From the NCBI RefSeq assembly GCF_964204865.1, contig NC_135263.1, positions 14,367,426 through 14,431,425 on the forward strand: a stretch of 64,000 nucleotides of DNA, given 5' to 3'. Below are positions 1-41,730 of the stretch, in pieces. The position numbers and the translations under genes were made by a program. Under the pieces are notes generated by a model that made no database searches, was not told the DNA's origin, and was given only the letters and a program-made list of their open reading frames with translations. The stretch comes from Styela clava. Taxonomy: Eukaryota; Chordata; Ascidiacea; Stolidobranchia; Styelidae. Position 1 is the first letter of the stretch. Every line of letters starts with the position of its first letter.

Positions 1-553
1 TCTACGTTTACCACCTTATTCAATACGAAAAACACATTGAAAATCACAGAGTCTAAAATACCAAGATTAGTCTAACTACCAACAATCTATGCATTTTTTC
101 GGGTAGCCTACAAAACATTCCCACCTTGATTTCAAATATTCATTCAGACTCAGGCTAATAATTAAATTATTGAGTCTTATTTCCTGATTTAATATTTTAA
201 CCATACACCAGACAACGTAAAACAAAATAACCAATTTTGGAATGTTCTAAAGCTCTATTCTGAATTGTATAAACACCATGACATCTACACAGTATTGCTA
301 TTTTGATTAAAATCTAAGACAAAATATCCAATAAAAAAAGCTGGAAATGATTAAAATCACAAAAAATAATTTCTATTAATATTTATTATATTGATTGCCG
401 CAAGTGTTTATTGTTCTATAATCACGCATATGGAGAGCATTGTTGATCAATTCAAAAAACACTATTTAAAATATCAAAATAACAATTATATTTAAAATAA
501 AAAATAAATAAAACAACAAATAATTGCGTCGTTATAATTCTGTTTCGTGCAAA

Positions 554-1698
554 TCAGGCACAGGCCTCATTTTTCACAACGTTGGAGTTAAACCCAAATT
601 TATCCATCATAAAAGAAAGTCGAGAAAAGAATCCAAAAGAAAATGAAGGTTTTGTTGTTTTCGTAACACAAGGCTTCTCTGTTGGATTTACGTGAGGAGC
701 TGTTGGTTTCTGGTTCGTTGATATTTCTTTGCTAGGTTTCTTTGAAAACTCATTCTTTGCAGACGACTTCGGTACAAGCGGGTTATTAACAATTGGTCTT
801 TGACGACTTTTGTTTGATTCTTTCTTGTCAAAAGACTTCGTAGTCGTTTTTTTAGAGACTGTCCTCTTATTTTGCATTTTTTCATGCTTTTTCTGTTCTA
901 CTGATGACTTCAATTTTTTGATGACGTTATTTTTTGTTGGGTTCTTGCTAGTAATTTTTTTCGTGGATGACTCACTTGGCGAAGTGTCTGGAAAACAATT
1001 TTCGAGCAGTCGTGCTTGTTTCTGAATTTTCTTTTTCGATGAAACTATTTTTGATAATTTGTATTCTTCTGGAATGATACCTTGTGAGGTTCCGGCTAAA
1101 ATATTTAAAAAATACAATATAAGTGAATAAATAAACATACGAAGCCTATTATTGCACTCAAACAATAAAAGCAGACAAACTATTTCATTGTTTAACAAGC
1201 GAAAATTAATAAACACAAAGAAAAATAAAACAAACCTCCTTTAACTATGCAAGAACATTTATAGATACAACAGTGAGAGTACGCTTTGTTTCCACAATCT
1301 TTTGGATCGACGAGTTTCTTGTTACGGAAATCATAGCAAGGAATCGTTTTTCTTTCAAATCCTTTTACTGTATACAGAAATACCAAATGTTATAAATAGC
1401 AATACCTATTACAAAAAAATCTTCTGATTATTTGTTGAAACAAAGCAAGAAAGACGAAGGTATTATAAGATAATATTATATGAAATTGAATAAAAATGCT
1501 TTTTATAATTTATATACGAATAATACACGAATTTTTAATATTTTGAATTGATACGAGAATGAAATATGTGCTGGCATCGTTATTGAACTTACCTGGAGCA
1601 CATTGTGTTTTGCTGATTTTATATCTGAGCTGAAAAGGGGTGAGTGATGCAGCAATATTGCAAATCCCAATGACAACGACAAAAAGTAATAATTTCAT
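554..1698 (-). CDS. Array gene 1A: secreted Cys-core, Lys-rich-tail protein
   Basis: Three exons on the minus strand: 1698-1593, 1367-1236 and 1095-554, 259 aa. Both introns are phase 1, with donors GTAAG and GTTTG and acceptors TATACAG and ATTTTAG. Residues 1-18 form a signal peptide (MKLLLFVVVIGICNIAAS). The mature part has cysteines at 33, 46, 60, 68, 69, 73, 75 and 113 (spacing C-x12-C-x13-C-x7-CC-x3-C-x-C), then a Lys/Ser/Thr-rich tail with Cys222 and Cys258. A hydrophobic block containing SFSFGFFSRLSFMM precedes the C-terminus. The ATG was chosen because it opens the signal peptide and sits 17 bp after a splice-acceptor-like TTTTGCAG. A strongly basic secreted protein is clear; its role is not. 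I do not recognise the family. Binding to an anionic surface, antimicrobial action or a matrix role are only guesses. Confidence 0.8.
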
Positions 1699-1905
1699 TT
1701 TGTTAGGAAGTAATTCTGCAAAAATATACCAGATTTTATTTTACTCTTATGATTAACCAACTTTGAGATGGGAATAGTAGTTGAAACTGTACAATATTCA
1801 TTTGTATCATGACTAGAGCAAGCACTTGAATATTTCAGTAGCTCTGAACATACTTGTTCGAAATACAATAATCGAATCTATGTTGCAACAAGAAATTGTT
1901 TGTAG

Positions 1906-2045
1906 CTTTTATAGTTTCAGATTGACATTTGTGTTTATTGCCTTGAGCAACGATTGCCCTACATTACTATGTAAATTTGCATGCTTGTTACGTTTCTTAG
2001 CCACAAATCGTAATTTCATTTACTTTGGTAGCGTCACAGTGACGC
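1906..2045 (-). promoter_or_regulatory. Core promoter of array gene 1A
   Basis: Read on the minus strand, a TATAAAAG box lies at 1913-1906, about 208 bp upstream of the ATG. A near-perfect palindrome GCGTCACAGTGACGC lies at 2031-2045. Between them is an ATGCAAAT octamer (the POU-factor consensus). The same three elements recur upstream of the other minus-strand genes, which is the main evidence. Factor identities are inference. Confidence 0.6.
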
Positions 2046-5000
2046 ATTTTCTGTAAACCTAAACAAAGTGCTCTTGAACACATACTATTAGTAGACTCAA
2101 AGAATCCGTAGACTTGAATATTGCTATCGCCACGATAAATACGTCATATTGAGTTTAAAAATAGAACAAGATTAAATCGTTGGATTAAGCTTTTCATGTA
2201 AAAATCAGGCTGTAATGGATTAACAAAGATGAAATGAGTCATGAAATTTTGTAAAAGTTTCAAATAACGTCAAGGAGACTTTATTTGCTAGTATTTTTCT
2301 GTCTTTAATCAAATGTAATAAAATAAATTGTCATTAGTTAATGACATCATGCGATATAGCACGACATGGAATATCATTTAAATTAGGATTAGACGTTTGA
2401 CGGTCGGGATCAAACAAAACCTAAAAATTCATTTAATTGAGCACTAGTTTCTCTGCACAATAAATCATATGAATATAAACCGCTTTATAGTTATATTAAA
2501 GTTACATTGTTTATTATTCAAAAAAAATCGATTATGGATTAGTAGATGGATTATCCTGGTTCTATGTCGTAATTTTTTTAAATTGATCCACAGTTTTTGT
2601 TTTAAAGTTGCAGTTTAACAATTATATAAAATTTAAAGATCTATTCTAACCGAGATATTAAAAATATATAGAAGTTTAAATTTTTTATATTCAGCATTTC
2701 AACCGAGTATATTTAATAAAATAATTATTGCAGAATTTGTTAGATTCTTGTAAATCAAATTCCAAAAAAATGGTTTCCCATAAACAAAATGTTTATCAGA
2801 CTCAAAAGTGAATGTAATTAAAGCTTCGCAGCATTAATAAAATCTAAACTAATATTTTAGCAAAATATGAAACTTTCATTTGTGAGTTTCATTGTGAGAA
2901 TACACAATATATTTATTCATACAATTAAAATATAAAACAACAATTTAAAGAAAAAATACAGAAAACGGAAAGGTGGAAATAGGCTGAATTCACTACTGTC
3001 ATGAATATTAAAGTTAAACACGTATATGCATAAGCCCAACACATTCTCTGCGAAAGCTTGATAAAAATTACGCATTTTTATGACAAAGTGATCAGTATAA
3101 CTACATCGTAAGTTACTTCTATTTTAAACAATTTATACCGCGGTTATTAAGCGATTAAACGTTATGTTTCAATATATCCATAGTTTAAATAGAAAATGAA
3201 AAAGTAATTGATTTAAAATATAATTCATCATTTGTATGATTATAATATTTATTACGTCAAGAAGTCTTACTTTTCGTGTTCGAATTTTGTTTGCAATTTG
3301 CTTCAAAAATGCGTCGGTCAAAAATCAATTTGTGGGCAATAAATCTGCTTACGATAAATGCGACAAATGTCATTCTATCACCTTGGATTAAATAAAGTAT
3401 TTATACGTGTGAACTTCACATATATAATTATTGAACATGTGTAAATGTAATCGAATATGTGAATTTATATTTATCCTGAGCCATAAGTTCAACAGAGTAC
3501 ATTTCTGCCTATTTCCGAAATTCATTTTTCTTTTTCTTTTTCCCTAACATTATTCTTTTATATTTTAATTGTATAAATATATTGTGTATTATTGGAAAGT
3601 CACAAATAAAAGTACCATGTTTTGCTATGATATTAGTTTTAAATTTTAGTGATGCTGTAAAGCTTTAATGACATTTACTTTCAGGTGTGATACACATTTA
3701 TTTATGGAGAATCATAGTTAAAGCGGTATATCTTTATAAGAATATTCTTACAAAGACTAGTGCCGAATTAGTTTCATCCCGACCGTCAAACCTGTAAACC
3801 TCTTTAAAATTATTATACCTCATTGCACTAAAATGCATGATGTCAATAACTTACTAATGATAAAAAAATATGCTAATCACAATTGAATTGAGAAAGTAAA
3901 ACGCATTTAAGTAAAGTCTTCCCGGCGTTATTTGGGTATTTTACAAAAATCCCAATCTCATTCTATCTCTATGTTTCGTTAAACATAAATGTTAATCCAT
4001 AACACCCCAGACATTACCATCCACTATAGCTTAATTTTTACCTAAAAAGATTAATCCAATTCAAGACAATGTAGTTATGGGGAACGTCTGTACCCAAATA
4101 TGAAATAACCATTCTAAATAGTGTGATCAAGTCAAAATATTTCTGACTAATCGAACTTGCAAAAATAATCTTTCCACTTATCTACAGAGAGACTCCAAAA
4201 TAGAGAACTTATAAATTTTATGATTACTTGTTAATTTTCTTATCAACCGACCTTCTGTTTTAGTAAGATTGTACCCAAAAGTTTCACGTTGTGCATGAAA
4301 GTTATGTTCTCTTTGGAACATGTTCCAAATGGCCATTTTGGCGTTGAAGACACACTTGCATACGTTGCAGCCTTGAGTTTACCAGTCGAATAATGATTGC
4401 CTTGACCAACTATTGTTTTACAATTCAAATTATGTTTGCATTTCACCAATAGTTTTAAACACAATTTGTAATTGTATTAACATCAGTTGCGTCATAATGA
4501 CGTATTTTCAGTAATCACAAACACACCACATACAAATAAATATCATTAATTAATGCTCCTAAAGAAACACCACACTCGGTGGCGTCATGGTGACGTATTT
4601 TCAATAATCCCAAACAAATCACACTCAAATAAATATCATTAAATAATGCTCTCAAATAATCGACAGACTTGTCTATTGCTATTGTCGGGATTAAACGTCA
4701 TAGCGAGTTTAAAAATAGATCTGAATAAATCCGATAGACTAAGTTTTTTACGTTGGAAATACGCGACAACACAGATAAAATGTGACATGAAAATACATTG
4801 CAAAACTTTTGGATTTAGTCCATCATTTTATCCTTCTTTGACAATGAATGATTGTTAGATTAACTTTAAAAAAATATTGTTGAGGTGATAATGATATGTT
4901 TAATATGTATTGCCTATTAAGGGACCTATATTTTTTCTTGTATAAAAGAATTATTTTTATAAAGTTTATTTCAATTAGGTAGCAAATCAGAAATTAAGCT

Positions 5001-6286
5001 TTTTTGTGATAAAAAAAAATTCTGACAAATTTATTCATATACCTAAATTTAATTATTACACAATAGCGCATGAGATCCTTTTTTTTTATAAACATATTAT
5101 AACAGAAATCTACTGTGTAGAACGTATGGCTCAGGATAAATATAAATTCTCATATTCGATTACATTTACACACGTGCAATAAATATATAGGTGTATAAGT
5201 TCACACGTATAAATACAGTTTTAATCCAGGACGATAGAATGACATTTGTCGTATTTATTGTTAAACAGATTTATTGCCCACAGATTGATGACGCATTTTT
5301 GAAGCAAATTGCAAATAAAGTTCGAACACGAAAATTACGAATTTTTGACGTCATAAATATTATAATTATACAAATATTGCATTATATTTTATTAAATTAT
5401 CCTTTTTTTCAGTTTTTATTAAAACTATTTATTTACTGAAAGTTATAACTGCGTCATAAATTGTTTAAAAATAGAAGTTACTCCTAATGTACTTATCACA
5501 TTGTCATAAACATTCGTGGTTTTTACTAATGTGCAGGACTAATGCATCAACATGCATCAGATGTTGATGTTCAATTTTGGTTTAATATTTATGATATTGG
5601 TGATTTCAGCCTATTTCCACATTTCCTGTATTTTTTCCTAAGGTTGCTTTTTTGTATTTTAGTTGTATAGATATTTGGGATTTCTGGAAACTCAGAATAA
5701 TCTTAGTTTTAGATTTTGATGATGTGGTAAAGCTTTAATGACATTCTAATATCTCGATGTAAATTCTTCATAAATTCATACATTTTAAAACTGCAACTCT
5801 AAAATATAAAATTGTGGATGAACAAGAGTATCTTTTAATGGATACAGGTATATCAATTCCTAATATTCTGAATTAATTTATTTTAAATAATAAACAATGT
5901 AACTTTGGGTATAACTATAAATTTGTATATGATAATAAAATTCGTTATAATGCATTTAAAAGGCATGATGTCATTAACTTACTAATGATAAACACTATGT
6001 TAATCACGATTGAATAAAGACAGAAAAATACTACCTAATAAAGTCTTCTTGACGTTATTAGGGAATTTTACTAAAATTCATGTCACATTTTATGTTTTTA
6101 CATCTTTGTTAATCCATTGCAACCTGATTTTCACGTGAGAAGCTCAATCTAACTTTTTAATCTTGTTTTATTTTTAAACTCACTATGACGTATTAATCGT
6201 GACAATAGCAATAATTAAATCTACGGATTCTTTGAGTCTACTAGTAGTATTTATTCAAGAGGTCTTCGTTTGGGTTTACAGAAAAT
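2046..6286. repeat. Head-to-head spacer of unit 1
   Basis: No gene with a supportable exon structure is visible. The spacer is built from internally duplicated blocks. The block with GTTTGACGGTCGGGAT near 2394 recurs inverted near 3780. A block around 2090-2270 recurs directly around 4640-4800 and inverted around 6040-6240. Stretches near 3420-3480 and 5110-5190 are inverted copies of each other. Two further GCGTCA..TGACG palindromes lie at 4489-4503 and 4582-4595. Positions 4360-4460 resemble the promoter of the flanking genes (ATTGCCTTGA, then TTTGCAT), so a dead promoter copy is likely. Small open frames here are short and lack start context or splice signals. Confidence 0.6.
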
Positions 6287-6434
6287 GCGTCACTATGACG
6301 ATACCAAGGTAAATGAAATTACGATTAGTGGCTAAGAAACGTTACAAGAGTGCAAATTTACAAAGTAATATGGGGCAATTGTTGCCCGAGGCCAGAAACA
6401 CAAATGTCAATCTGAAACTTTGCATCTATAAAAG
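6287..6434 (+). promoter_or_regulatory. Core promoter of array gene 1B
   Basis: The palindrome-like GCGTCACTATGACG is at 6287-6300 and the TATA box (CTATAAAAGC) at 6427-6434, about 223 bp before the ATG. Between them is GGGCAATTGTTGCCC, a perfect inverted repeat with a 3-base centre. The arrangement mirrors the divergent minus-strand promoter. The octamer is degenerate here (GTGCAAAT). Confidence 0.6.
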
Positions 6435-6656
6435 CTACAAACATTTTCTTGTTACAACATAATTCGATTATTGTATTTCGAAAAAATATGTTCAGAGCGA
6501 CTGAAATATCTAAGTGCTTGTACTAGCCGTAAATGATAAATTGCACAAATGGGTATTTATACAGTATTATTCCAATGCTATTTCAACCTTAAATTTGGTT
6601 AATCACAGCATCAAAATAAAATCTAGTTTATTTTTACAGAATTACTTTCTAACAAA

Positions 6657-7888
6657 ATGAAATTATTATTCTTTGTCGTGGTCGTCGGGATTTGCGATAT
6701 TGCAGCATCATTGACCCCTTTTCAGCTCAGATATAAAATCAGCAAAACACAATGTGCTCCAGGTAGGTTCAAGATTTTATTGTCTCATATCTGATATATG
6801 TTTTAGACTATATAAAGATTCCAGCACATATCCTATTCTTTAATTCCCTAAAAAAAAAATGCGTTCAAAATTACAAATAGCATTTTTATTTAATTTCATT
6901 TAATATTATCTTACAATATCACAATGTTTTTTGCTTTGCTTTAACGAATAATCAAGAGAATTCTCGGAAATAGTTATTGTTATTTATAACATATGGTATT
7001 TCTGTATACAGTTAGAGGATTTGAAAGAAAAACGATTCCTTGCTATGATTTCCGTAACAAGAAACTCGTCGATCCAAAAGATTGTGGAAACAAAGCGTAC
7101 TCTCACTGTTGTATTTATAAATGTTCTTGCATAGTTAAAGGAGGTTTGTTTTATTTTTTTTGTGTTTATTAATTTTCGCTTTTTAAACAATTAAATAGTT
7201 TGCCTGGTTTTATTGTAGCCAAAACACAAGAAAATTCCTCAGTTGGTTTATCAGGACATTTTTGAAATTTTATAGGCACAACACTTGTGATACGTTTGAG
7301 TGCGATAATACTCTTTGTAACTTTTACTTATTCACTTTTATTTTTTTTTAGCCGGAACCTCACTAGGTATCATTCCAGAAGAATATAAATTATCAAAAAT
7401 AGTTTCATCAAAAAAGAATGCTCAGAAACAAGCAAGACTGCTAGAAAATTGTTTACCAGACGCTTCAACAAGCGAGTCATATCTGAAAAAGATAACCAGC
7501 AAGAATCCAACAGAAAATATTGTCATCAAAAAATTAAAGTCATCAGTAGAACAGAAAAAGCATGAGAAAATGCAAAATAAAAAGACTGTCGGTAAAAAGC
7601 CGAAAACGAAGTAATAAAAAAGAATTAAACAAAAATCGTCAAAGACCAAGTGTTAATGAACCGCTTGTACCGAAGTCGTCTGCAAATAATAAGATTTCAA
7701 AGAAGACCAACAAAGGAAAATCAACAAACCAGAAACCAACTTTTTCTCACGTGAAGCCAACGAAAAAACCATGTGTTACGAAAACAACAAAACCTTCATT
7801 TTCTTTTGGATTCTTTTCTCGACTTTCTTTTATGATGGATCAATTTGGTTTTAACTCCAACGTTGTGAAAAATGATTCCTGTTCTTGA
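6657..7888 (+). pseudogene. Array gene 1B, tail truncated by a 5-bp deletion
   Basis: Exons 6657-6762, 7012-7143 and 7352 onwards, with phase-1 introns as in the other copies. Relative to copies 2B and 3B, five bases (TCTGT) are missing after position 7611. The reading frame therefore meets TAA at 7612-7614, giving 166 aa instead of 259. The rest of the ancestral frame continues out of phase to 7888. Signal peptide and the eight-cysteine core (through Cys113) are intact; about half of the Lys-rich tail, the C-terminal hydrophobic block and the last two cysteines are lost. It could be a pseudogene or a functional core-only variant; promoter and splice sites look normal. Exon 2 begins VRGFERK where minus-strand copies have VKGFERK. 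Confidence 0.75.
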
Positions 7889-8304
7889 TTAGCATGCAGC
7901 AGAATTTAAAATTTTTTTATAATATTAAATTATTACAACAACAATTACCCTTAAACTTATTTTCACGCTTCTCTGCATTTTTTTTTGTCTTTTGGATAAA
8001 AATATAGTGCTTTTATACTATAACCACTTTCTATTGGATATGTCGGGGTTCATCATCAATCACTGCGGGCGAGATAAAAATCAATATTCAGAAGAGAATA
8101 GTTGACCGGTCTGAATGCATGAAATTCGATGGTCAAAAAATAAGCGGAAGTTATGTGAGCCATTCTGCGGCGACAATTTTTTTCACATAATTGTCTCTTG
8201 TGGAATTCGAATCTCAATAAGCAATATTGATACGATTGCGAGTAAATGAATAGTCTGATGACTCTCCGGAAATCTTGAATATTGCTGAACAAATAGTGTT
8301 GCAG
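7889..8304. other. 3' flank of gene 1B
   Basis: This is the 3' untranslated and flanking sequence of the plus-strand gene and it recurs after genes 2B, 3B and 4B. A minus-strand open frame of 78 codons (8056-8292) is conserved among the copies only because the DNA is nearly identical. It has no splice or promoter context, so I do not call it a gene. No AATAAA is seen until 8318-8323. Confidence 0.5.
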
Positions 8305-8455
8305 TTTCTGGTTTCGAAATAAAACCCACCGGTTCTTGCTATAATTTCAGTAGCAAGAAAATCGTTGATTTAAAAACAGAACAAAGAAAGCGTACTTTTG
8401 TAGTTGAAAACCCGCAGTTTGCATCTGCAAAGCCTTGTGTTAAAATCGGCAAAAT
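8305..8455 (+). pseudogene. Relic of exon 2 (and perhaps part of exon 3), unit 1
   Basis: The stretch around 8330-8400 aligns with exon 2 of the array gene. TTCTTGCTATAATTTC matches TTCCTTGCTATGATTTCC, AGCAAGAAAATCGTTGAT matches AACAAGAAACTCGTCGAT, and AAAGAAAGCGTACT matches AACAAAGCGTACT. The frame is destroyed and both splice sites are lost. A little downstream, AAAGCCTTGTGTTA resembles the AAACCATGTGTTACG motif of exon 3. This is the remains of an older gene copy. Confidence 0.65.
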
Positions 8456-9703
8456 GGACTCTCGTAGATCAGTTTGACTACCACTCTCAAGTAATTTGAA
8501 GGTTAATTACTTATGGATTTTAATCGGTAAGTATGTTGATAGGTATTTGTCTGTCTTTAAGTCTGTCTGTCTGTTAGATGCACGCGATATCTCACGAAAA
8601 CGAGATTGAATCTGCTCCAGATTTTGCATGTGCATTCGTCATATCTCGGACCAGGAGTCTATTGATTTTGGGCGAAATATGTCGTATAATTAGCGAGTTA
8701 TCAATTAATTAGTGATGGGACACAAGGTCACTATGGAATAAGAGCGCTGTTTTGGGGATCCCCCAACTTTCGATCGATAAGTCTTCGGTCTCTGACCGAT
8801 ATTTTCGTTATAGTAGTTATTGCCTCTTGCGTTTATGCTTTTGAATAAGCATTAAACACGTGATTTTCACGTTTTTTGGCGACAGTGATGGTTTCAAAAA
8901 TCGGGAATCGTTGAGAATTGACTTCACATGGTACAATATAATTCTGATCAAACCTTTATTGAAACTACTTTCTATATCTTGATAACAAAATGTTTCCAAA
9001 ACTGTGGTATTTAATTGGGACTGTTTCACATCTAAAATAAATTTTAGTTAATAAAAATTTGAACCTTTAGTACATTGTTTAATTGTCTAATACTAACATT
9101 TAAATTAACAAATTTAGCGGGTAAATTAGTAGTAATTCTAACAACAACTTTCTACGTTTACCACCTTATTCAATACGAAAAACACATTGAAAATCACAGA
9201 GTCTAAAATACCAAGATTAGTCTAACTACCAACAATCTATGCATTTTTTCGGGTAGCCTACAAAACATTCCCACCTTGTTTTCAAATATTCATTCAGACT
9301 CAAGCTAATAATTAAATTATTGAGTCTTATTTCCTGATTTAATATTTTAACCATACACCAGACGACGTAAAACAAAATAACCAATTTTGGAATGTTCTAA
9401 AGCTCTATTCTGAATTGTATAAACACCATGACATCTACACAGTATTGCTATTTTGATTAAAATCTAAGACAAAATATCCAATAAAAAAAGCTGGAAATGA
9501 TTAAAATCACAAAAAATAATTTCTATTAATATTTATTATATTGATTGCCACAAGTGTTTATTGTTCTATAATCACGCATATGGAGAGCATTGTTGATCAA
9601 TTCAAAAAACACTATTTAAAATATCAAAATAACAATTATATTTAAAATAAAAAATAAATAAAACAACAAATAATTGCGTTGTTATAATTCTGTTTCGTGC
9701 AAA
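8456..9703. repeat. Convergent intergenic tail between genes 1B and 2A
   Basis: The first part (about 8540-8830) looks like a dispersed repeat: a short GTCTGTCT run, then GATATCTCACGAAAACGAGA, a perfect palindrome around TTGGGGATCCCCCAA, and CATATCTCGGACC. The remainder to 9150 is unit-specific. From 9151 the 3' flank of the minus-strand gene 2A begins. On the minus strand AATAAA signals occur about 150-170 bp past that gene's stop. Nothing coding is supported. Confidence 0.5.
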
Positions 9704-10876
9704 TCAGGCACAGGCCTCATTTTTCACAACGTTGGAGTTAAACCCAAATTTATCCATCATAAAAGAAAGTCGAGAAAAGAATCCAAAAGAAAATGAAGGT
9801 TTTGTTGTTTTCGTAACACAAGGCTTCTTTGTTGGATTTACGTGAGGAGCTGTTGGTTTCTGGTTCGTTGATATTTCTTTGCTAGGTTTCTTTGAAAACT
9901 CATTCTTTGCAGACGACTTCGGTACAAGCGGGTTATTAACAATTGGTCTTTGACGACTTTTGTTTGATTCTTTCTTGTCAAAAGCCTTCGTAGTCGTTTT
10001 TTTAGAGACTGTCCTCTTATTTTGCATTTTCTCATGCTTTTTCTGTTCTACTGATGACTTCAATTTTTTGATGACGTTATTTTTTGTTGGGTTCTTGCTA
10101 GTAATTTTTTTCGTGGATGACTCACTTGGTGAAGTGTCTGGAAAACAATTTTCGAGCAGTCGTGCTTGTTTCTGAATTTTCTTTTTTGATGAAACTATTT
10201 TTGATAATTTGTATTCTTCTGGAATGATACCTTGTGAGGTTCCGGCTAAAATATATAAAAAATACAATATAAGTGAATAAATAAACATACGAAGCCTATT
10301 ATTGCACTCAAACAATAAAAGCAGACAAACTATTTCATTGTTTAACAAGCGAAAATTAATAAACACAAAGAAAAATAAAACAAACCTCCTTTAACTATGC
10401 AAGAACATTTATAGATACAACAGTGAGAGTACGCTTTGTTTCCACAATCTTTTGGATCGACGAGTTTCTTGTTACGGAAATCATAGCAAGGAATCGTTTT
10501 TCTTTCAAATCCTTTTACTGTATACAGAAATACCAAATGTTATAAATAGCAATACCTATTACAAAAAAATCTTCTGATTATTTGTTGAAACAAAGCAAGA
10601 AAGACGGTGGTATTATAAGATAATATTATATGAAATTAAATAAAAATTCTTTTTATAATTTTATACGAATTTTTAATATTTTGAATTAATACAAGAATGA
10701 AATATGTGCTGGCATCGTAATAAAATCTAAAATATATATCATATATGAGGCAATAAAATTTTGAACTTACCAGGAGCACATTGTGTTTTGCTGATTTTAT
10801 ATCTGAGCTGAAAAGGGGTCAGTGATGCTGCAATATCGCAAATACCGACGACCACGACAAAATGTAATAATTTCAT
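9704..10876 (-). CDS. Array gene 2A: secreted Cys-core, Lys-rich-tail protein
   Basis: Exons 10876-10771, 10517-10386 and 10245-9704, 259 aa, phase-1 introns. The signal peptide reads MKLLHFVVVVGICDIAAS, with His5 and Asp14 where 1A and 3A have Leu and Asn. Exon 2 is identical in protein to 1A. The tail differs by single residues, for example NPTKKPC for NPTEKPC. Intron 2 stays open in frame with exon 3 and contains an in-frame ATG followed by a hydrophobic run (MFIYSLILYFLYIL), so an alternative start inside intron 2 is conceivable. The splice-acceptor-like TTTTGCAG upstream of the ATG is present. Confidence 0.8.
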
Positions 10877-11083
10877 TTTGTTAGAAAGTAATTCTGCAAA
10901 AATATAACAGGTTTTATTTTACTCTTATGATTAACCAAATTTGAGATGGAAATAGTAGTTGAAACTGTACAATATTCATTTGTATCATGACTAGAGCAAG
11001 CACTTGAATATTTCCATAACTCTGAACATACTTGTTCGAAATACATTAATCGAATCTATGTTGCAACAAGAAATTGTTTGTAG

Positions 11084-11223
11084 CTTTTATAGTTTCAGAT
11101 TGACATTTGTGTTTATTGCCTTGAGCAACGATTGCCCTACATTACTATGTAAATTTGCATGCTTGTTACGTTTCTTAGCCACAAATCGTAATTTCATTTA
11201 CTTTGGTAGCGTCACAGTGACGC
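11084..11223 (-). promoter_or_regulatory. Core promoter of array gene 2A
   Basis: TATAAAAG on the minus strand at 11091-11084, octamer ATGCAAAT near 11155-11162, and the GCGTCACAGTGACGC palindrome at 11209-11223. Spacing matches gene 1A. Confidence 0.6.
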
Positions 11224-18887: not shown

Positions 18888-20032
18888 TCAGGCACAGGCC
18901 TCATTTTTCACAACGTTGGAGTTAAACCCAAATTTATCCATCATAAAAGAAAGTCGAGAAAAGAATCCAAAAGAAAATGAAGGTTTTGTTGTTTTCGTAA
19001 CACAAGGCTTCTCTGTTGGATTTACGTGAGGAGCTGTTGGTTTCTGGTTCGTTGATATTTCTTTGCTAGGTTTCTTTGAAAACTCATTCTTTGCAGACGA
19101 CTTCGGTACAAGCGGGTTATTAACAATTGGTCTTTGACGACTTTTGTTTGATTCTTTCTTGTCAAAAGACTTCGTAGTCGTTTTTTTAGAGACTGTCCTC
19201 TTATTTTGCATTTTTTCATGCTTTTTCTGTTCTACTGATGACTTCAATTTTTTGATGACGTTATTTTTTGTTGGGTTCTTGCTAGTAATTTTTTTCGTGG
19301 ATGACTCACTTGGCGAAGTGTCTGGAAAACAATTTTCGAGCAGTCGTGCTTGTTTCTGAATTTTCTTTTTCGATGAAACTATTTTTGATAATTTGTATTC
19401 TTCTGGAATGATACCTTGTGAGGTTCCGGCTAAAATATTTAAAAAATACAATATAAGTGAATAAATAAACATACGAAGCCTATTATTGCACTCAAACAAT
19501 AAAAGCAGACAAACTATTTCATTGTTTAACAAGCGAAAATTAATAAACACAAAGAAAAATAAAACAAACCTCCTTTAACTATGCAAGAACATTTATAGAT
19601 ACAACAGTGAGAGTACGCTTTGTTTCCACAATCTTTTGGATCGACGAGTTTCTTGTTACGGAAATCATAGCAAGGAATCGTTTTTCTTTCAAATCCTTTT
19701 ACTGTATACAGAAATACCAAATGTTATAAATAGCAATACCTATTACAAAAAAATCTTCTGATTATTTGTTGAAACAAAGCAAGAAAGACGAAGGTATTAT
19801 AAGATAATATTATATGAAATTGAATAAAAATGCTTTTTATAATTTATATACGAATAATACACGAATTTTTAATATTTTGAATTGATACGAGAATGAAATA
19901 TGTGCTGGCATCGTTATTGAACTTACCTGGAGCACATTGTGTTTTGCTGATTTTATATCTGAGCTGAAAAGGGGTGAGTGATGCAGCAATATTGCAAATC
20001 CCAATGACAACGACAAAAAGTAATAATTTCAT
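18888..20032 (-). CDS. Array gene 3A: secreted Cys-core, Lys-rich-tail protein
   Basis: Exons 20032-19927, 19701-19570 and 19429-18888, 259 aa. The predicted protein is identical to gene 1A along its full length, including the short form of intron 1 that genes 2A, 4A and 5A lack. Identity in introns and flanks as well shows a very recent duplication or conversion between units 1 and 3, or a duplicated assembly segment. Confidence 0.8.
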
Positions 20033-26226: not shown

Positions 26227-26642
26227 TTAGCATGCAGCAAAATTTAAAATTTTTTTATAATATTAAATTATTACAACAACAATTACCCTTAAACTTATTT
26301 TCACGCTTCTCTGCATTTTTTTTTGTCTTTTGGATAAAAATATAGTGCTTTTATACTATAACCACTTTCTATTGGATATGTCGGGGTTCATCATCAATCA
26401 CTGCGGGCGAGATAAAAATCAATATTCAGAAGAGAATAGTTGACCGGTCTGAATGCATGAAATTCGATGGTCAAAAAATAAGCGGAAGTTATGTGAGCCA
26501 TTCTGCGGCGACAATTTTTTTCACATAATTGTCTCTTGTGGAATTCGAATCTCAATAAGCAATATTGATACGATTGCGAGTAAATGAATAGTCTGATGAC
26601 TCTCCGGAAATCTTGAATATTGCTGAACAAATAGTGTTGCAG
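26227..26642. other. 3' flank of gene 3B
   Basis: Counterpart of 7889-8304; no gene supported. Confidence 0.5.
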
Positions 26643-26793
26643 TTTCTGGTTTCGAAATAAAACCCACCGGTTCTTGCTATAATTTCAGTAGCAAGAAAAT
26701 CGTTGATTTAAAAACAGAACAAAGAAAGCGTACTTTTGTAGTTGAAAACCCGCAGTTTGCATCTGCAAAGCCTTGTGTTAAAATCGGCAAAAT
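26643..26793 (+). pseudogene. Relic of exon 2, unit 3
   Basis: Identical in form to the unit 1 relic; no frame, no splice sites. Confidence 0.6.
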
Positions 26794-28041: not shown

Positions 28042-29216
28042 TCAGGCACAGGCCTCATTTTTCACAACGTTGGAGTTAAACCCAAATTGATCCATCATAA
28101 AAGAAAGTCGAGAAAAGAATCCAAAAGAAAATGAAGGTTTTGTTGTTTTCGTAACACAAAGCTTCTTTGTTGGATTTACGTGAGGAGCTGTTGGTTTCTG
28201 GTTCGTTGATATTTCTTTGCTAGGTTTCTTTGAAAACTCATTCTTTGCAGACGACTTCGGTACAAGCGGGTTATTAACAATTGGTCTTTGACGACTTTTG
28301 TTTGATTCTTTCTTGTCAAAAGACTTCGTAGTCGTTTTTTTAGAGACTGTCCTCCTATTTTGCATTTTCTCATGCTTTTTCTGTTCCACTGATGACTTCA
28401 ATTTTTTGATGACGTTATTTTTTGTTGGGTTCTTGCTAGTAATTTTTTTCGTGGATGACTCACTTGGCGAAGTGTCTGGAAAACAATTTTCGAGCAGTCG
28501 TGCTTGTTTCTGAATTTTCTTTTTCGATGAAACTATTTTTGATAATTTGTATTCTTCTGGAATGATACCTTGTGAGGTTCCGGCTAAATATATATAAAAA
28601 ATACAATATAAGTGAATAAATAAACATACGGAGCCTATTATTGCACTCAAACAATAAAAGCAGACAAACTATTTCATTGTTTAACAAGCGAAAATTAATA
28701 AACACAAAGAAAAATAAAACAAACCTCCTTTAACTATGCAAGAACATTTATAAATACAACAGTGAGAGTACGCTTTGTTTCCACAATCTTTTGGATCGAC
28801 GAGTTTCTTGTTACGGAAATCATAGCAAGGAATCGTTTTTCTTTCAAATCCTTTTACTGTATACAGAAATACCATATGTTATAAATAGCAAAACTATTAT
28901 GAAAAAAAATCTTCTGATTATTTGTTGAAGCAAAGCAAGAAAGACGGTGGTATTATAAGATAATATTATATGAAATTAAATAAAAATTCTTTTTATAATT
29001 TTATACGAATTTTTAATATTTTGAATTAATACAAGAATGAAATATGTGCTGGCATCGTAATAAAATCTAAAATATATATCAGATATGAGGCAATAAAATT
29101 TTGAACTTACCAGGAGCACATTGTGTTTTGCTGATTTTATATCTGAGCTGAAAAGGGGTCAGTGATGCTGCAATATCGCAAATACCGACGACCACAACAA
29201 AAAGTAATAATTTCAT
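28042..29216 (-). CDS. Array gene 4A: secreted Cys-core, Lys-rich-tail protein
   Basis: Exons 29216-29111, 28856-28725 and 28583-28042, 259 aa. Signal peptide of the FVVVVGICDIAAS type. Core identical to 1A. Tail differences include QNRRTVS for QNKRTVS, a Leu for Pro giving KKLCVTK, and MMDQF for MMDKF as in plus-strand copies. Intron 2 is one base longer than in units 1-3 (CTAAATATATATAA), which moves the upstream open frame. Confidence 0.8.
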
Positions 29217-29423
29217 TTTGTTAGAAAGTAATTCTGCAAAAATAAAACAGGTTTTATTTTACTCTTATGATTAACCAACTTTGAGATGGAAATAGTAGTT
29301 GAAACTGTACAATATTCATTTGTATCATGACTAGAGCAAGCACTTGAATATTTCAGTAACTCTGAACATACTTGTTGGAAATACATTAATCGAATCTATG
29401 TTGCAACAAGAAATTGTTTGTAG

Positions 29424-29571
29424 CTTTTATAGATGCAAAGTTTCCGATTGTCATTTGTGTTTATTGCCTTGAGCAACGATTGCCCTACATTACTATGTAA
29501 ATTTGCATGCTTGTTACGTTTCTTAGCCAAATATCGTAATTTTATTTACCTTTGTAGCGTCACAGTGACGC
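29424..29571 (-). promoter_or_regulatory. Core promoter of array gene 4A
   Basis: TATAAAAG on the minus strand at 29431-29424, preceded by TTTGCATC as in the plus-strand promoters (units 1-3 minus-strand promoters lack these bases). Palindrome GCGTCACAGTGACGC at 29557-29571. Confidence 0.6.
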
Positions 29572-30759
29572 ATTTTCTGTAAACCCAAACAAAGTGCTCT
29601 TGAACACATACTATTAGTAGACTCGAAGAATCCGTAGACTTGAATATTGCTATCGCCACGATAAATACGTCATATTGAGTTTAAAAATAGAACAAGATTA
29701 AATCGTTGGATTAAGCTTTTCATGTAAAAATCAGGCTGTAATGGATTAACAAAGATGAAATGAGACATGAAATTTTGTAAAAGTTTCAAATAACGTCAAG
29801 GAGACTTTATTTGCTAGTATTTTTCTGTCTTTATTTAAATGTAATAAAATAAATTGTCACATTGTCATATTAATATTTACGAATATGCAGGGCTTATGCA
29901 TGTTCACATGTTTCAGTTTAATATTTCTGATAGTGGTAATTTCAGCCTATTTCCACAACTCATGTTCCTGCATTTTTTCCTAAAATTGCTTTTTTGTATT
30001 TTAATTGTATAGATATTTGGGATTTTTGAAAACTCAGAAAAATTTTAGTTTTAGATTTCAATGAAGTGGTTGAAGCTTTAATGACACTCTAATATCTCAA
30101 TGTAAAGTCTCCACAATTTTTTTAAATTTTAAAGCTGCAACTTAAAAATATATATATATATATGTATGAATTTAGAAAAATATAAATATATAACCAGGAG
30201 TTTTTAATTTGAATACGTGTATATTTATTCATAATTTTCTGACTTAATTTCTGAATAAAATTTCTAAATTAAATAATAAACAATGTAACTTTAGTATAAC
30301 TAAAAAACGGTATATATTTATAAGAATTGCTATAATGATTCTAGTGCTCAAAGAAATGAATTTTTAGGTTTTGTTTTATCCCTACCGTCTAACCCTTAAT
30401 CCTCATTATAATTATATTTCATATTGGTTTAAAATACATGATGTCATTTACTTACTAATGATTAACATCATGTTAATCACGATCAAATAAAGGCAGGAAA
30501 ATACTACGAAATAAAGTCTTCTTGACGTTATTTAGAACTTTTACAAACATGCATGTCCCTATTTATCTTATTTCATCTTTGTCAATCCATTGCAACCTGA
30601 TTTTCACGTGAAGAACTCAATCCAACAATTCAATCTTGTTCTATTTTTAAACTCGCTATGACGTATTAATCGCGACAATAAAAATAGTTAAATCTACCGA
30701 TTCTTTGAGTCTACTGATAGTATTTATTCAAGAGCACTTTGTTTTGGTTTACAGAAAAT
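29572..30759. repeat. Shortened head-to-head spacer of unit 4
   Basis: The left part follows the unit 1 spacer to AAATTGTCA at about 29859. The right part continues with CATTGTCAT, the equivalent of about 5497 in unit 1. An (AT)n run lies at about 30150-30163. No gene is supported. Confidence 0.6.
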
Positions 30760-30907
30760 GCGTCACTGTGACGATACCAATATAAATGAAATTACGATTT
30801 GTGGCTAAGAAACGTTACAAGAGTGCAAATTTACATAGTAATATGGGGCAATTGTTGCCCGAGGCCAGAAACACAATTGTCAATCTGAAACTTTGCATCT
30901 ATAAAAG
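30760..30907 (+). promoter_or_regulatory. Core promoter of array gene 4B
   Basis: GCGTCACTGTGACG at 30760-30773, the most symmetrical of the plus-strand versions, and TATAAAAG at 30900-30907. Confidence 0.6.
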
Positions 30908-31129
30908 CTACAAACAATTTCTTGTTACAACATAATTCGATTATTGTATTTCGAAAAAATATGTTCAGAGCTACTGAAATATCTAAGTGCTTGTACTAGC
31001 CGTAAATGATAAATTGCACAAATGGGTATTTATACAGTATTATTCCACTTCTATTTTAAACTTAAATTTGGTTAATCACAGCATTAAAATAAAATTTGGT
31101 TTATTTTTGCAGAATTACTCTCTAACAAA

Positions 31130-32353
31130 ATGAAATTATTACTCTTTGTCGTGGTCGTCGGGATTTGCGATATTGCAGCATCATTGACCCCTTTTCAGCT
31201 CAGATATAAAATCAGCAAAACACAATGTGCTCCTGGTAGGTTCAAGATTTTATTGCCTCATATCTGTTATATGTTTTAGACTATATAAAGATTCCAGCAC
31301 ATATCCTATTCCTTAATTCCCCCAAAAATTAAATTACGTTCAAAATTACAAAAAGCATTTTTATTTAATTTCATTTAATATTATCTTACAATATCACAAT
31401 GTTTCTTGCTTTGCTTTTCAAGAGAAGTCTCTGTAATAATTATTGTTATTTATAACATATGATATTTCTGTATACAGTTAAAGGATTTGAAAGAAAAACG
31501 ATTCCTTGCTATGATTTCCGCAACAAGAAACTCGTCGATCCAAAAGATTGTGGAAACAAAGCGTACTCTCACTGTTGTATTTATAAATGTTCTTGCATAG
31601 TTAAAGGAGGTTTGTTTTATTTTTTTTGTGCTTATTAATTTTCGCTTTTTAAACAATGAAATAGTTTGTCTGATTTTATTGTAGCCAAAACACAAGAAAA
31701 TTCCTCAGTTGGTTTATCAGGACATTTTTGAAATTTTATAGGCACAACACTTGTGATACGTTTGAGTGCGATAATACTCTTTACTTATTCATTTTTATTT
31801 TTTCTTAGCCGGAACCTCACAAGGTATCATTCCAGAAGAATATAAATTATCAAAAATAGTTTCATCAAAAAAGAATGTTCAGAAACAAGCGAGACTGCTA
31901 GAAAATTGTTTATCCGACTCTTCAACAATAAGCGAGTCATATCCGAAAAAGATAACCAGCAAGATTCCAACAAACGATATTGTCATCAAAAAATTAAAGT
32001 CATCAGTAGAACAGAAAAAGCATGAAAAAATGCAAAATAAAAAGACTGTCGTGAAAAAGCCAAAAACGAAGTCTGTCAATAAACAAGAATTAAACAAAAC
32101 TCGTCAAAGACCAAGTGTTAATAAACCGCTTGTACCGAAGTCGTCTGCAAATAACAAGTTTTCAAAGAAGACCGACAAAGGAAAATCAACAAACCAGGAA
32201 CCAACTTTTTCTCACGTGAAGCCAACGAAAAAACCATGTGTTACGAAAACAACAAAACCTTCATTTTCTTTTGGATTTTTTTCTCGACTTTCTTTTATGA
32301 TGGATCAATTTGGTTTTAACTCCAACGTTGTGAAAAATGATTCCTGTGCTTGA
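31130..32353 (+). CDS. Array gene 4B: secreted Cys-core, Lys-rich-tail protein
   Basis: Exons 31130-31235, 31478-31609 and 31809-32353, 260 aa. Exon 3 has one extra codon (SSTISESYP for ASTSESYP). Exon 2 begins VKGFERK like the minus-strand class. Tail changes include VNKQELNKTRQRP and NQEPTFSH. It ends NDSCA, as in 5B, where the other plus-strand copies have NDSCS. Signal peptide, eight-cysteine core and C-terminal block are intact. Confidence 0.8.
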
Positions 32354-32767
32354 TTAGCATGCAGCAGAATTTAAAAAATTTTATAATATTAAATTATTAC
32401 AACAACAATTACTCTCAAACTTATTTCCACGCTTCTCTGCATTTTTTTTGTCTTTTGGATAAAAATATAGTGCTTTTATACTATAACCACTTTCTATTGG
32501 ATATGTCGGGGTTCATCATCAATCACTGCGGGCTAGATAAAAATCAATATTCAGAAGAGAATAGTTGACCGGTCTGAATGCATGAAATTCGATGGTCAAA
32601 AAATAAGCGGAAGTTATGTGAGCCATTCTGCGGCGACAATTTTTTTCACATAATTGTCCCTTGTGGAATTCGAATCTCAATAAGCAATATTGATACGATT
32701 GCGAGTAAATGAATAGTCTGATGACTCTCCGGAAATCTTGAATATTGCTGAACAAATAGTGTTGCAG
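32354..32767. other. 3' flank of gene 4B
   Basis: Counterpart of 7889-8304; no gene supported. Confidence 0.5.
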
Positions 32768-32918
32768 TTTCTGGTTTCGAAATAAAACCCACCGGTCCTT
32801 GCTATAATTTCAGTAGCAAGAAAATCGTTGATTTAAAAACAGAACAAAGAATGCGTACTTTTGTAGTTGAAAACCCGCAGTTTGCATCTGCAAAGCCTTG
32901 TGTTAAATTCGGCAAAAT
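32768..32918 (+). pseudogene. Relic of exon 2, unit 4
   Basis: Same decayed exon-2-like sequence (GGTCCTTGCTATAATTTC, then GAATGCGTACT), slightly different in bases from units 1-3. It was therefore present before the units separated. Confidence 0.6.
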
Positions 32919-34154: not shown

Positions 34155-35327
34155 TCAGGCACAGGCCTCATTTTTCACAACGTTGGAGTTAAACCCAAAT
34201 TGATCCATCATAAAAGAAAGTCGAGAAAAGAATCCAAAAGAAAATGAAGGTTTTGTTGTTTTCGTAACACAAGGCTTCTTTGTTGGATTTACGTGAGGAG
34301 CTGTTGGTTTCTGGTTCGTTGATATTTCTTTGCTAGGTTTCTTTGAAAACTCATTCTTTGCAGACGACTTCGGTACAAGCGGGTTATTAACAATTGGTCT
34401 TTGACGACTTTTGTTTGATTCTTTCTTGTCAAAAGACTTCGTAGTCGTTTTTTTAGAGACTGTCCTCCTATTTTGCATTTTCTCATGCTTTTTCTGTTCC
34501 ACTGATGACTTCAATTATTTGATGACGTTATTTTTTGTTGGGTTCTTGCTAGTAATTTTGTTCGTGGATGACTCACTTGGCGAAGTGTCTGGAAAACAAT
34601 TTTCGAGCAGTCGTGCTTGTTTCTGAATTTTCTTTTTCGATGAAACTATTTTTGATAATTTGTATTCTTCTGGAATGATACCTTGTGAGGTTCCGGCTAA
34701 ATATATATAAAAAATACAATATAAGTGAATGGATAAACATACGGAGCCTATTATTGCACTCAAACAATAAAAGCAGACAAACTATTTCATTGTTTAACAA
34801 GCGAAAATTAATAAACACAAAGAAAAATAAAACAAACCTCCTTTAACTATGCAAGAACATTTATAAATACAACAGTGAGAGTGCGCTTTGTTTCCACAAT
34901 CTTTTGGATCGACGAGTTTCTTGTTACGGAAATCATAGCAAGGAATCGTTTTTCTTTCAAATCCTTTTACTGTATACAGAAATACCATATGTTATAAATA
35001 GCAAAACTATTATAAAAAAATCTTCTGATTATTTGTTGAAGCAAAGCATGAAGGACGGTGGTATTATAAGATAATATTATATGAAATTAAATAAAAATTC
35101 TTTTTATAATTTTATACGAATTTTTAATATTTTGAATTAATACAAGAATGAAATATGTGCTGGCATCGTAATAAAATCTAAAATATATATCAGATATGAG
35201 GCAATAAAATTTTGAACTTACCAGGAGCACATTGTGTTTTGCTGATTTTATATCTGAGCTGAAAAGGGGTCAGTGATGCTGCAATATCGCAAATACCGAC
35301 GACCACGACAAAAAGTAATAATTTCAT
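34155..35327 (-). pseudogene. Array gene 5A, nonsense codon in the tail
   Basis: Exons 35327-35222, 34969-34838 and 34696-34155. In exon 3 an AAA lysine codon has become TAA (34517-34515), so the product stops after 139 aa at NNVIK. The remaining frame continues uninterrupted to 34155. The signal peptide and all eight core cysteines (33 to 113) precede the stop, as in gene 1B. Exon 2 has His for Tyr65 (GNKAHSHCC) and exon 3 Asn for Lys (SSTNKITSK). It may be a dying gene or a core-only product; promoter and splice sites look normal. Confidence 0.75.
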
Positions 35328-35534
35328 TTTGTTAGAAAGTAATTCTGCAAAAATAAAACAGGTTTTATTTTACTCTTATGATTAACCAACTTTGAGATGG
35401 AAATAGTAGTTGAAACTGTACAATATTCATTTGTATCATGACTAGAGCAAGCACTTGAATATTTCAGTAACTCTGAACATACTTGTTGGAAATACATTAA
35501 TCGAATCTATGTTGCAACAAGAAATTGTTTGTAG

Positions 35535-35683
35535 CTTTTATAGATGCAAAGTTTCAGATCGACATTTGTGTTTATTGCCTTGAGCAACGATTGCCCTACA
35601 TTACTATGTAAATTTGCATGCTTGTTACGTTTCTTAGCCAAATATCGTAATTTTATTTACCTTTGTAGCGTCACAGTGACGCA
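35535..35683 (-). promoter_or_regulatory. Core promoter of array gene 5A
   Basis: TATAAAAG on the minus strand at 35542-35535 and GCGTCACAGTGACGC at 35669-35683; same form as gene 4A. Confidence 0.6.
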
Positions 35684-38600: not shown

Positions 38601-40185
38601 CTTTAATTGTAAGTAATCATATGTCTTTATTTAGTTGTGACTTTTGATGTTAGTTAGTTAATGACATCAACGGTTTTATCCCAGTATGAAATGTTATTGT
38701 AATGGAGTTTAGGCTGGGATAAGATTAAAACCTAAATCCCATTTGATTGATCAATGATCTCCTTTAAAGCAAATTTGAAAAACAGAGAAAGTTTTCACTG
38801 AATTTACATTATTCCTTATAATTATAATAAAAGTGAAAGAAATGTGGTTTCAATACACATATATTCAATTCAAATATGTCTGGTTTGGTATTCTAATTTT
38901 GTCTAAATTCATTCACAATTTTTTGTATTCAAGTGTCTGTTTTGATGTTTTACTAATTTTTGGGTGGTTCGTATCAGGGTATTCAAAATTTATAAAATAC
39001 CATATTATTAGTGCATTTACAGAAAATACATTGCAAAACTTTTGAATTCAGTCCATCATTTTATCCTTCTTTGACAATGAATTTTTTCTTGTATGCGAGA
39101 ATTATTTTTGTATAAAGTTTAGATCAATTACGTAGCAAATCAGTAATCAGGCTTTTTTGTAATAAAAAAAAAATATGGCAAATTTATTCATATACTTAAA
39201 TTTAATTATTACACAATAACGCTGGAGATCCTTGTTTTTTTTTATAAACATATTATAACAGAAATCTACTGTGTAGAACGTATGGCTCAGGATAAATATA
39301 AATTCACATATTCGATTACATTTACACACGTGCAATAATTATATAGGTGTATAAGTTCACACGTATAAATACATTTTTAATCCAAGACGATAGAATGACA
39401 TTTGTCGTATTTATTGTTAAACAGATTTATTGCCCACAGATTGATGACGCATTTTTGAAGCAAATTGCAAACAAAGTTCGAACACGAAAATTACGAATTT
39501 TTGACGTCATAATATTATAATTATACAAATACTGCATTATATTTTAAGTCAACTACTTTTTCAGTATTTATTTAAACCATGTATTTACTGAAGGTTAACG
39601 TTTAATCGCTTAATAACTGCGTCATAAATTGTTTAAAAATAGAAGTAACTCATAATGTGCTGATCACATTGTCATATTAATTTTTACGAATATGCAGGGC
39701 TTATGCATGTTCACATGTTTCAGTTTATAATTTATGATAGTGGTAATTTCATTTATAATAATGATTCTAGTGCTCAAAGAAATGAATTTTTAGGTTTTGT
39801 TTTATCCCTACCGTCTAACCCTTAATCCTCATTATAATTATATTTCATATTGGTTTAAAATACTTGATGTCATTTACTTACTAATGATTAACATCATGTT
39901 AATCACGATCAAATAAAGGCAGAAAAATACTACGAAATAAAGTCTTCTTGGCGTTATTTAGAACTTTTACAAAAATGCATGTCTCATTTTATCTTGTTTC
40001 ATCTTTGTCAATCCATCGCAACCTGATTTTCACGTAAAGAGCTCAATCCAACAATTCAATCTTGTTCTATTTTTAAACTTGCTATGACGTATTAATCGCG
40101 ACAATAAAAATAGTTAAATCTAACGATTCTTTGAGTCTACGGATAGTATTAATTCAAGAGCACTTTGTTGGGGTTTACAGAAAAT
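35684..40185. repeat. Head-to-head spacer of unit 5
   Basis: Homologous to the spacers of units 1-3 but clearly more diverged. It lacks about 270 bp (the dead-promoter-like block) at about 38226 and has about 0.5 kb extra at about 38530-39020. Two central palindromes remain (about 38236-38250 and 38332-38345). No coding sequence is supported. Confidence 0.55.
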
Positions 40186-40333
40186 GCGTCACTATGACGA
40201 TACCAAGGTAAATGAAATTACGATTTGTGGCTAAGAAACGTTACAAGAGTGCAAATTTACATAGTAATATGGGGCAATTGTTGCCCGAGGCCAGAAACAC
40301 AAATGTCAATCAGAAACTTTGCATCTATAAAAG
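40186..40333 (+). promoter_or_regulatory. Core promoter of array gene 5B
   Basis: GCGTCACTATGACG at 40186-40199 and TATAAAAG at 40326-40333. Confidence 0.6.
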
Positions 40334-40554
40334 CTACAAACAATTTCTTGTTACAACATAATTCGAATATTGTATCTCGAACAAATATGTTCAGAGCTAC
40401 CGAAATATCTAAGTGCTTGTACTAGCCGTAAATGATAAATTGCACAAATGGGTATTTATACAGTATTATTCCAATTCTATTTCAACCTTAAATTTAGTTG
40501 ATCACACCATTAAAATAAAATCTGTTTATTTTTGCAGAATTACTTTCTAACAAA

Positions 40555-41730
40555 ATGAAATTATTACTCTTTGTCGTGGTCGTCGGGATTTGCGATATTG
40601 CAGCATCATTGACCCCTTTTCAGCTCAGATATAAAATCAGCAAAACACAATGTGCTCCTGGTAGGTTCAAAATTTTATTGCCTCCTATCTGATATATGTT
40701 TTAGACTATATAAAGATTTCAGCACATATCCTATTCCTTAATTCCCTAAAAAAAAATTGCGTTCAACAATGTTTTTTGCTTTGCTTTAACGAATAATCAA
40801 GAGAATTCTCTGTAATAGGTATCGTTATTTATAACATATGTTATTTCTGTATACAGTTAAAGGATTTGAAAGAAAAACGATTCCTTGCTATGATTTCCGC
40901 AACAAGAAACTCGTCGATCCAAAAGATTGTGAAAACAAAGCGTACTCTCACTGTTGTATTTATAAATGTTCTTGCATAGTTAAAGGAGGTTTGTTTTATT
41001 TTTTTTGTTCATTAATGTTTGCTTTTTAAACAATGAAATGCCTGATTTTATTGTAACCAAAACACAAGAAAATTCCTCAGTTGGTTTATCAGGATATTTT
41101 TGAAATTTTATAGGCACAACACTTGTGATACGTTTTAGTGCGATAATACTCTTTGTATCTTTTACCTATTCACTTATATTTGTTTTAGCCGGAACTTCAC
41201 AAGGTATCATTCCAGAAAATTATAAATTATCGAAAATAGTTTCATCAAAAAAGAATGTTCAGAAACAAGCAAGACTGCTAGAAAATTGTTTATCAGACGC
41301 TTCAACAAGCGAGTCATATCCGAAAAAGAAAACCAGCAAGAATCCAACAGAAAATATTGTCATCAAAAAAATAAAGTCATCAGTAGAACAGAAAAAGCAT
41401 GAGAAAATGCAAAATCAAAAGACTGTCGTGAAAAAGCCGAAAACGAAGTCTGTTAATAAAAAAGAATTAATCAAAAATCGTCAACGACCAAGTGTTAATA
41501 AACCGCTTGTACCGAAGTCGTCTGCAAAGAATGAGTTTTCAAAGAATCCCGACAAAGGGAAATTAACGAATCAGAAACCAACTGCTTCACACGTGAAGCC
41601 AACGAAAAAGCCATGTGTTACAAAAACAACAAAACCTTCATTTTCTTTTGGATTCTTTTCTCGTCTTTCTTTTATGATGGATCAATTTGGTTTTAACTCC
41701 AACGTTGTGAAAAATGATTCCTGTGCTTGA
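40555..41730 (+). CDS. Array gene 5B: secreted Cys-core, Lys-rich-tail protein
   Basis: Exons 40555-40660, 40857-40988 and 41189-41730, 259 aa. The tail mixes features of both classes: KSVNKKEL and THVKP-type residues of the plus-strand class, with SSAKNEFSKNP and PTASHV of the minus-strand class. Exon 2 has Glu for Gly (DCENKAYS) and begins VKGFERK. It could be closest to the ancestral gene, or the product of gene conversion between classes. Confidence 0.8.

Follow-up and report, generated by a model that had tools for sequence, protein, structure and literature searches.

A 64,000-nucleotide (nt) stretch of the genome of the ascidian Styela clava (NCBI RefSeq assembly GCF_964204865.1, contig NC_135263.1, positions 14,367,426 to 14,431,425 of the forward strand; hereafter the window) holds, at positions 554–41730, ten copies of one three-exon gene. 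Five copies lie on the minus strand (M1–M5) and five on the plus strand (P1–P5), strictly alternating and arranged head to head. A preliminary description of the locus had proposed just such an array, built of five tandem two-gene units, and the placement of all ten genes agrees with it; that the array structure is real appears highly probable. A six-frame search of the window finds the C-terminal block SFSFGFFSRLSFMM at ten places, five per strand and again alternating. One copy served as the alignment template for placing exons 1 and 2, and exon 3 was located from its splice acceptor. In every copy, exon 1 has a length of 106 nt and exon 2 one of 132 nt. Introns 1 and 2 are of the GT-AG type in 10/10 copies, as invariant as the intron 2 donor GTTTGT and the intron 1 acceptor ATACAG. 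Exon 2 is a symmetrical phase 1-1 exon that carries six cysteines. The reading frame is full length (259–260 amino acids, aa) in eight copies, and exon 3 is broken in P1, by a 5-nt deletion relative to P3, and in M5, by a stop codon. Sequence encoding the tail with SFSFGFFSRLSFMM and the splice sites is common to the ten, but the earlier statement that every copy has the tail is wrong for P1 and M5. The last stop codon of the array ends at 41730. About 19 bases further on, P5 is no longer homologous with the other plus copies, and there the array ends. On the left, the window begins within the spacer outside M1, and the array may therefore extend past that edge. In the rest of the window, tblastn found no relative of the gene better than E 6.6.

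The predicted protein begins with a hydrophobic stretch of 18 residues (e.g., MKLLLFVVVVGICDIAAS) that by eye resembles a signal peptide, and it is probably secreted. Taken from after residue 18, a cleavage site also set by eye, the mature P4 protein has 242 residues, a mass of 27.35 kDa and an isoelectric point (pI) of 9.98; it contains 45 Lys, 7 Arg, 8 Asp, 9 Glu, 10 Cys and no Trp. Its core of 61 residues has seven cysteines and a pI of 9.4. The tail of 149 residues is rich in Lys, Ser and Thr, with 36 Lys/Arg against 11 Asp/Glu, and the C-terminal block is conserved and hydrophobic. This composition confirms the basic Lys/Ser/Thr-rich tail of the preliminary description. The eight-cysteine core described there needs correction, since the pattern given for it, C-x12-C-x13-C-x7-CC-x3-C-x-C, contains seven; the eighth cysteine within residues 19–113 is C113, encoded by exon 3.

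Comparison of plus with minus copies points to selection on the protein. On average they diverge by 6.2% in exon 1 and by 2.4% in exon 2, and the two halves of exon 3 stand at 14.9% and 12.0%. The introns are more diverged (20.3% and 24.9%, with gaps of 14% and 33%), and past the stop codon the figure is 39–56%. The mean ratio of nonsynonymous to synonymous divergence (dN/dS) over all plus/minus pairs of the eight intact copies is 0.25. By region, the core (residues 19–79) has 0.09, the tail 0.28 and the C-terminal block 0.32. Since the exons are less diverged than the introns and dN/dS is 0.25, the frame is maintained by selection. On these coding comparisons the protein is under purifying selection, with the head strictly and the tail loosely constrained.

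Exon 2 is especially uniform, the ten copies being 95–100% identical to the first. Fixed plus/minus differences amount to 1/132 positions in exon 2, 23/145 in intron 1, 27/132 in intron 2 and 47/537 in exon 3, as counted on seven of the ten copies (P4 was omitted for its additional codon, P1 and M5 for their lesions). When only synonymous differences are taken from the same seven copies, the core and exon 3 do not differ (2 per 36.3 sites vs. 14 per 114.7 sites, p = 0.36), while the pairwise mean dS points the opposite way, with 0.11 in the core and 0.41 in the tail. Short gene-conversion tracts or a constraint at the RNA level might hyper-conserve the synonymous sites of exon 2. A separate observation concerns exon 1 of M1 and M3 (1592–1698 and 19926–20032), which diverges from that of M2, M4 and M5 much more strongly than its flanks. 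Between units 1 and 2 the divergence is 5.1% in this block (1592–1698) and 0.2–1.9% around it, as if the exon had been converted from a paralogue outside the window.

The history of the array can be read from its units. In a tree of the coding sequences, the plus and the minus copies form separate clades with 100/100 support. Unit 1 is an imperfect palindrome, and the same kind of inverted arms is seen in units 2, 4 and 5; unit 3 lay outside the arm comparison, but is 99.92% identical to unit 1. The two genes of a pair are separated, from ATG to ATG, by 4959, 4960, 4959, 1914 and 5228 bases in the five units, of which unit 4 is short (6.1 kb vs. 8.2–9.2 kb for the others). Divergence is 0.08% between units 1 and 3 (9149 positions), 0.91% between units 1 and 2, and 2.8% between units 4 and 5; the group of units 1–3 differs from unit 4 by 4.3–4.7% and from unit 5 by 6.1–6.5%. 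These relations show that a single inverted duplication came first and was followed by tandem duplications of the pair, some of them very recent. The preliminary description had taken the strict alternation as a sign of selection for dosage. The tree splits by strand and the units repeat as wholes, and alternation then arises automatically once an existing inverted pair is duplicated in tandem; no dosage selection is needed, and selection for alternation as such was rejected as unnecessary. An open frame of 96 codons on the minus strand is kept in four tail-to-tail spacers (8056–8346, 17239–17529, 26394–26684 and 32519–32809). Its first copy matched no Pfam family, and the frame may be due to chance in near-identical DNA.

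Each gene also seems to have its own promoter. About 650 bases upstream of the ATG can be aligned between plus and minus copies. Of the 17-nt TATA string CTATAAAAGCTACAAAC the window has exactly ten copies. Every gene has one upstream on its own strand, at a distance of 230–231 bases from the ATG in plus genes and 216 in minus genes; 100 shuffles of the sequence gave none. The element TGCGTCACTRTGACG, an inverted repeat of TGACG, is likewise present once per gene and ten times in the window. Because the copies are homologous, these counts reflect conservation and not independent origin. A splice-acceptor-like TTTTT(A/G)CAG lies 18 bases upstream of every ATG, so the 5′ leader may contain an intron or be trans-spliced. 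A spliced-leader sequence of Ciona is not in the window, a result that is uninformative on the taxon.

Table 1. Gene copies, palindromic arms and promoter elements of the array (window positions).
Feature	Position	Strand	Exons or parts	Remarks
M1	554..1698	-	1698-1593, 1367-1236, 1095-554	intact, 259 aa
P1	6657..7888	+	6657-6762, 7012-7143, 7352 onward	166 aa to 7614; homologous sequence to 7888
M2	9704..10876	-	10876-10771, 10517-10386, 10245-9704	intact, 259 aa
P2	15836..17072	+	15836-15941, 16191-16322, 16531-17072	intact, 259 aa
M3	18888..20032	-	20032-19927, 19701-19570, 19429-18888	intact, 259 aa; coding sequence identical to M1
P3	24991..26226	+	24991-25096, 25345-25476, 25685-26226	intact, 259 aa
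M4	28042..29216	-	29216-29111, 28856-28725, 28583-28042	intact, 259 aa
P4	31130..32353	+	31130-31235, 31478-31609, 31809-32353	intact, 260 aa (1 additional codon)
M5	34155..35327	-	35327-35222, 34969-34838, 34696 onward	139 aa to 34515; homologous sequence to 34155
P5	40555..41730	+	40555-40660, 40857-40988, 41189-41730	intact, 259 aa; right end of the array
Unit 1, imperfect palindrome	532..7909		arms 532-2352 with 7909-5963, and 3167-3507 with 5441-5103	
TATA string CTATAAAAGCTACAAAC of P4 (example)	30899..30915	+		
TATA string CTATAAAAGCTACAAAC, minus genes	1898-1914, 11076-11092, 20232-20248, 29416-29432, 35527-35543	-		
TATA string CTATAAAAGCTACAAAC, other plus genes	6426-6442, 15605-15621, 24760-24776, 40325-40341	+		
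Promoter element TGCGTCACTRTGACG of P4 (example)	30759..30773	+		conserved

The layout has known precedents in genes for abundant secreted proteins. The class B Mup genes of the mouse form divergent head-to-head pairs that go back to an inverted-duplication founder and were amplified in tandem (PMC2533699). The resemblance lies in genes for secreted proteins, an inverted pair amplified as a unit and pseudogenes within the cluster (PMC2533699). In S. clava the same organisation is seen in the alternation, the inverted arms, the two clades and the tandem units. The Mup pair differs in having one pseudogene partner and a unit of about 45 kb, whereas here the partners are mostly intact and the units span 6–9 kb. 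Moreover, Mups are a known, characterised family, and no Pfam match links the array protein to them. In the silkmoth, 21 strictly head-to-head HcA/HcB chorion pairs, 330 nt apart, accompanied by pseudogenes and gene conversion, are reported for one strain (PMC4639761). This locus shares with the array a long tandem run of head-to-head pairs, cysteine-rich secreted products and interspersed pseudogenes, but its pairs, of two types A and B, are described there as sharing one 330-nt promoter region (PMC4639761). In the ascidian array the two ATGs lie 1.9–5.2 kb apart, and every gene comes with a TATA string of its own. It is thus the protein, and not the layout, that is without an assigned family.

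The sequence of events starts from a founder gene with its own promoter, which was copied once in inverted orientation to give a head-to-head pair. Unequal exchange then amplified the pair in tandem to at least five units, the latest very recent, with purifying selection acting on the protein throughout. Each gene would make a secreted protein of about 27 kDa with a disulphide-rich head, a long flexible polycationic tail and a hydrophobic C-terminal block. The head may be a stable disulphide-locked module. The tail could bind polyanions (glycosaminoglycan, sulphated polysaccharide or mucin) or be cross-linked via its lysines, and the C-terminal block and spare cysteines might aid assembly. Several near-identical genes with near-identical promoters would ensure a bulk supply. 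The best guess from the sequence is a lineage-restricted extracellular protein. The roles named in the preliminary description (defence, tunic, egg coat, adhesive) are guesses. Taken as a whole, an inverted pair amplified in tandem under purifying selection and encoding a secreted matrix or coat protein is put forward tentatively, as somewhat less than an even chance; the extracellular matrix or coat function on its own is slightly more doubtful. A fuller version is unlikely: in it, the secreted family would be specific to the lineage, its cystine-stabilised fold would be new, its polycationic tail would end in a hydrophobic cap, and its palindromic pairs would have been amplified to build bulk extracellular material (tunic, egg coat or adhesive).

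Several findings weigh against a bulk structural protein. dN/dS is 0.42 for P5 vs. P2–P4, which is relaxed for such a protein, and two of the ten copies are broken, which speaks against a strong demand for every copy. The P4 protein has only 6 Tyr and 0 Trp, and a repeated tail motif was not sought systematically, so nothing specifically indicates an adhesive or silk-like protein.

The nearest rival is host defence, which we regard as rather unlikely. A cationic tail and a hydrophobic C-terminal block would disrupt microbial membranes, and the array would evolve like an immune multigene family. The pI near 10, the cysteine-rich head and the turnover in copy number, including broken copies, fit this, and from ascidians both antimicrobial peptides rich in cysteine and a basic protein secreted by blood cells have been described (PMC13208793 and PMC6339383). 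The latter source describes rusticalin of the ascidian Styela rustica, which has an 18-residue signal peptide, a pI of 9.33 and a cysteine-rich N-terminal part (PMC6339383). The array protein resembles it in its 18-residue signal-like start, its basic character and its cysteine-rich N-terminal part. However, rusticalin as described there has the pattern Cx6Cx6-7Cx8Cx7CC and a C-terminal peptidase domain in place of the cysteine pattern and low-complexity basic tail found here (PMC6339383), and the St-CRPs have yet another pattern, CC-C-C-CC. The core is also near invariant, with a single fixed plus/minus difference in 132 exon-2 positions, and dN/dS is well below 1, unlike the diversifying pattern often seen in defence families.

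A second alternative, compatible with either function and about equally doubtful, is that the head, fused to a new tail, belongs to a known disulphide module (of the TSP1, PLAC, WAP or ShK type) but has diverged very far from it. A phase 1-1 exon with six cysteines would suit a shuffled module. The motifs R-x-x-I-x-C-x-D and C-x4-Y-x2-CC of the array protein resemble parts of TSP1 and PLAC domains. The searches argue otherwise. No Pfam family was found up to E = 10 for the 62-aa core or for any of the ten exon-2 copies, although HMMER filters hide most very weak matches; likewise, no TSP1, PLAC, WAP or ShK module is listed in the Pfam scans, where weak matches can be lost to these filters. Searches of the PDB, a profile search included, gave chance-level matches only (best E 0.35). 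Those to a SOD heterodimer (E 0.43), to IscB and others (E 0.35–4.7) and two more at E 1 and 1.6 were rejected as low-complexity or short. For the tail, Pfam gave only matches below the cut-off, to BROMI_C (14.4 and 14.0 bits against 25, E 0.021–0.026), BORCS8 (15.9 bits against 25, E 0.013) and ASD2 (10.5 bits against 26.4, E 0.45). These are coiled or basic matches and were not accepted as its identity. Pattern searches of viral and prokaryotic contigs turned up 7, 90, 58 and 11 matches, none confirmed as a relative. Within the Pfam, PDB and contig searches, the family thus stands as unrecognised, as had been proposed. Peptide strings of the protein do not occur in open-access PMC text.

It is also unlikely, a little more so than the two foregoing alternatives, that part of the array is an assembly duplicate, with haplotypes or repeat units laid side by side; there would then be fewer true genes, and the broken frames might be errors. 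Units 1 and 3 (1–9150 vs. 18335–27488) differ by about seven substitutions and two indel events, one of which is the P1 lesion. Unit 2, which lies between them, differs by 0.9%, and this A-B-A order suggests either a recent two-unit duplication or an assembly duplicate. Units 1–2 recur as units 3–4 across 11.5 kb at 99.4% identity. On the other side, the sequence contains no Ns, and units 4 and 5 differ by 4–6.5% from units 1–3, with large indels, so that at least three kinds of unit are real.

Midkine and pleiotrophin combine a cysteine core with a Lys-rich tail, and a secreted heparin-binding signal protein that works like them while being unrelated would share this broad architecture, from signal-like start to tail; it is nevertheless very improbable, since growth factors are not usually encoded by as many as ten near-identical genes, the cysteine arrangement is different and there is no Pfam match to the midkine/pleiotrophin family, which leaves the comparison a functional one only.

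It is in young, near-identical families of genes for secreted proteins of unknown fold that animals build the materials and defences peculiar to their lineage. Should the fold prove new and the product abundant, the locus, with two sequence classes, matched promoters and five units, would be a compact one for studying how inverted pairs are amplified and kept in step, and the protein would be a candidate polycation-tailed extracellular material.

Three other elements lie in the window. Next to the array, at 43180–49812 on the plus strand, lies a multi-exon gene whose exon borders were placed by eye. It matches the ZP-N domain at E 5.5e-08 and the ZP-C domain at E 3.9e-19, contains an RKKR site and shows an EGF-like match short of the cut-off (E 0.0064). 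Ascidian egg coats hold many ZP proteins (PMC9265791), but proximity by itself is weak evidence for an egg-coat role of the array. A retroelement remnant at 55428–56800 on the minus strand matches the rve integrase core (E 1.5e-08) and Integrase_H2C2 (E 3.6e-06). At 61241–62302 on the plus strand lies an iodothyronine deiodinase gene, whose last exon matches T4_deiodinase (E 2.3e-18). A weak SECIS_1 match follows at 62873–62936 (20.4 bits, gathering threshold 35, E 0.83). An upstream exon of the deiodinase gene reads GSCS-TGA-PPYM, and the TGA at 61400 is a probable selenocysteine codon.

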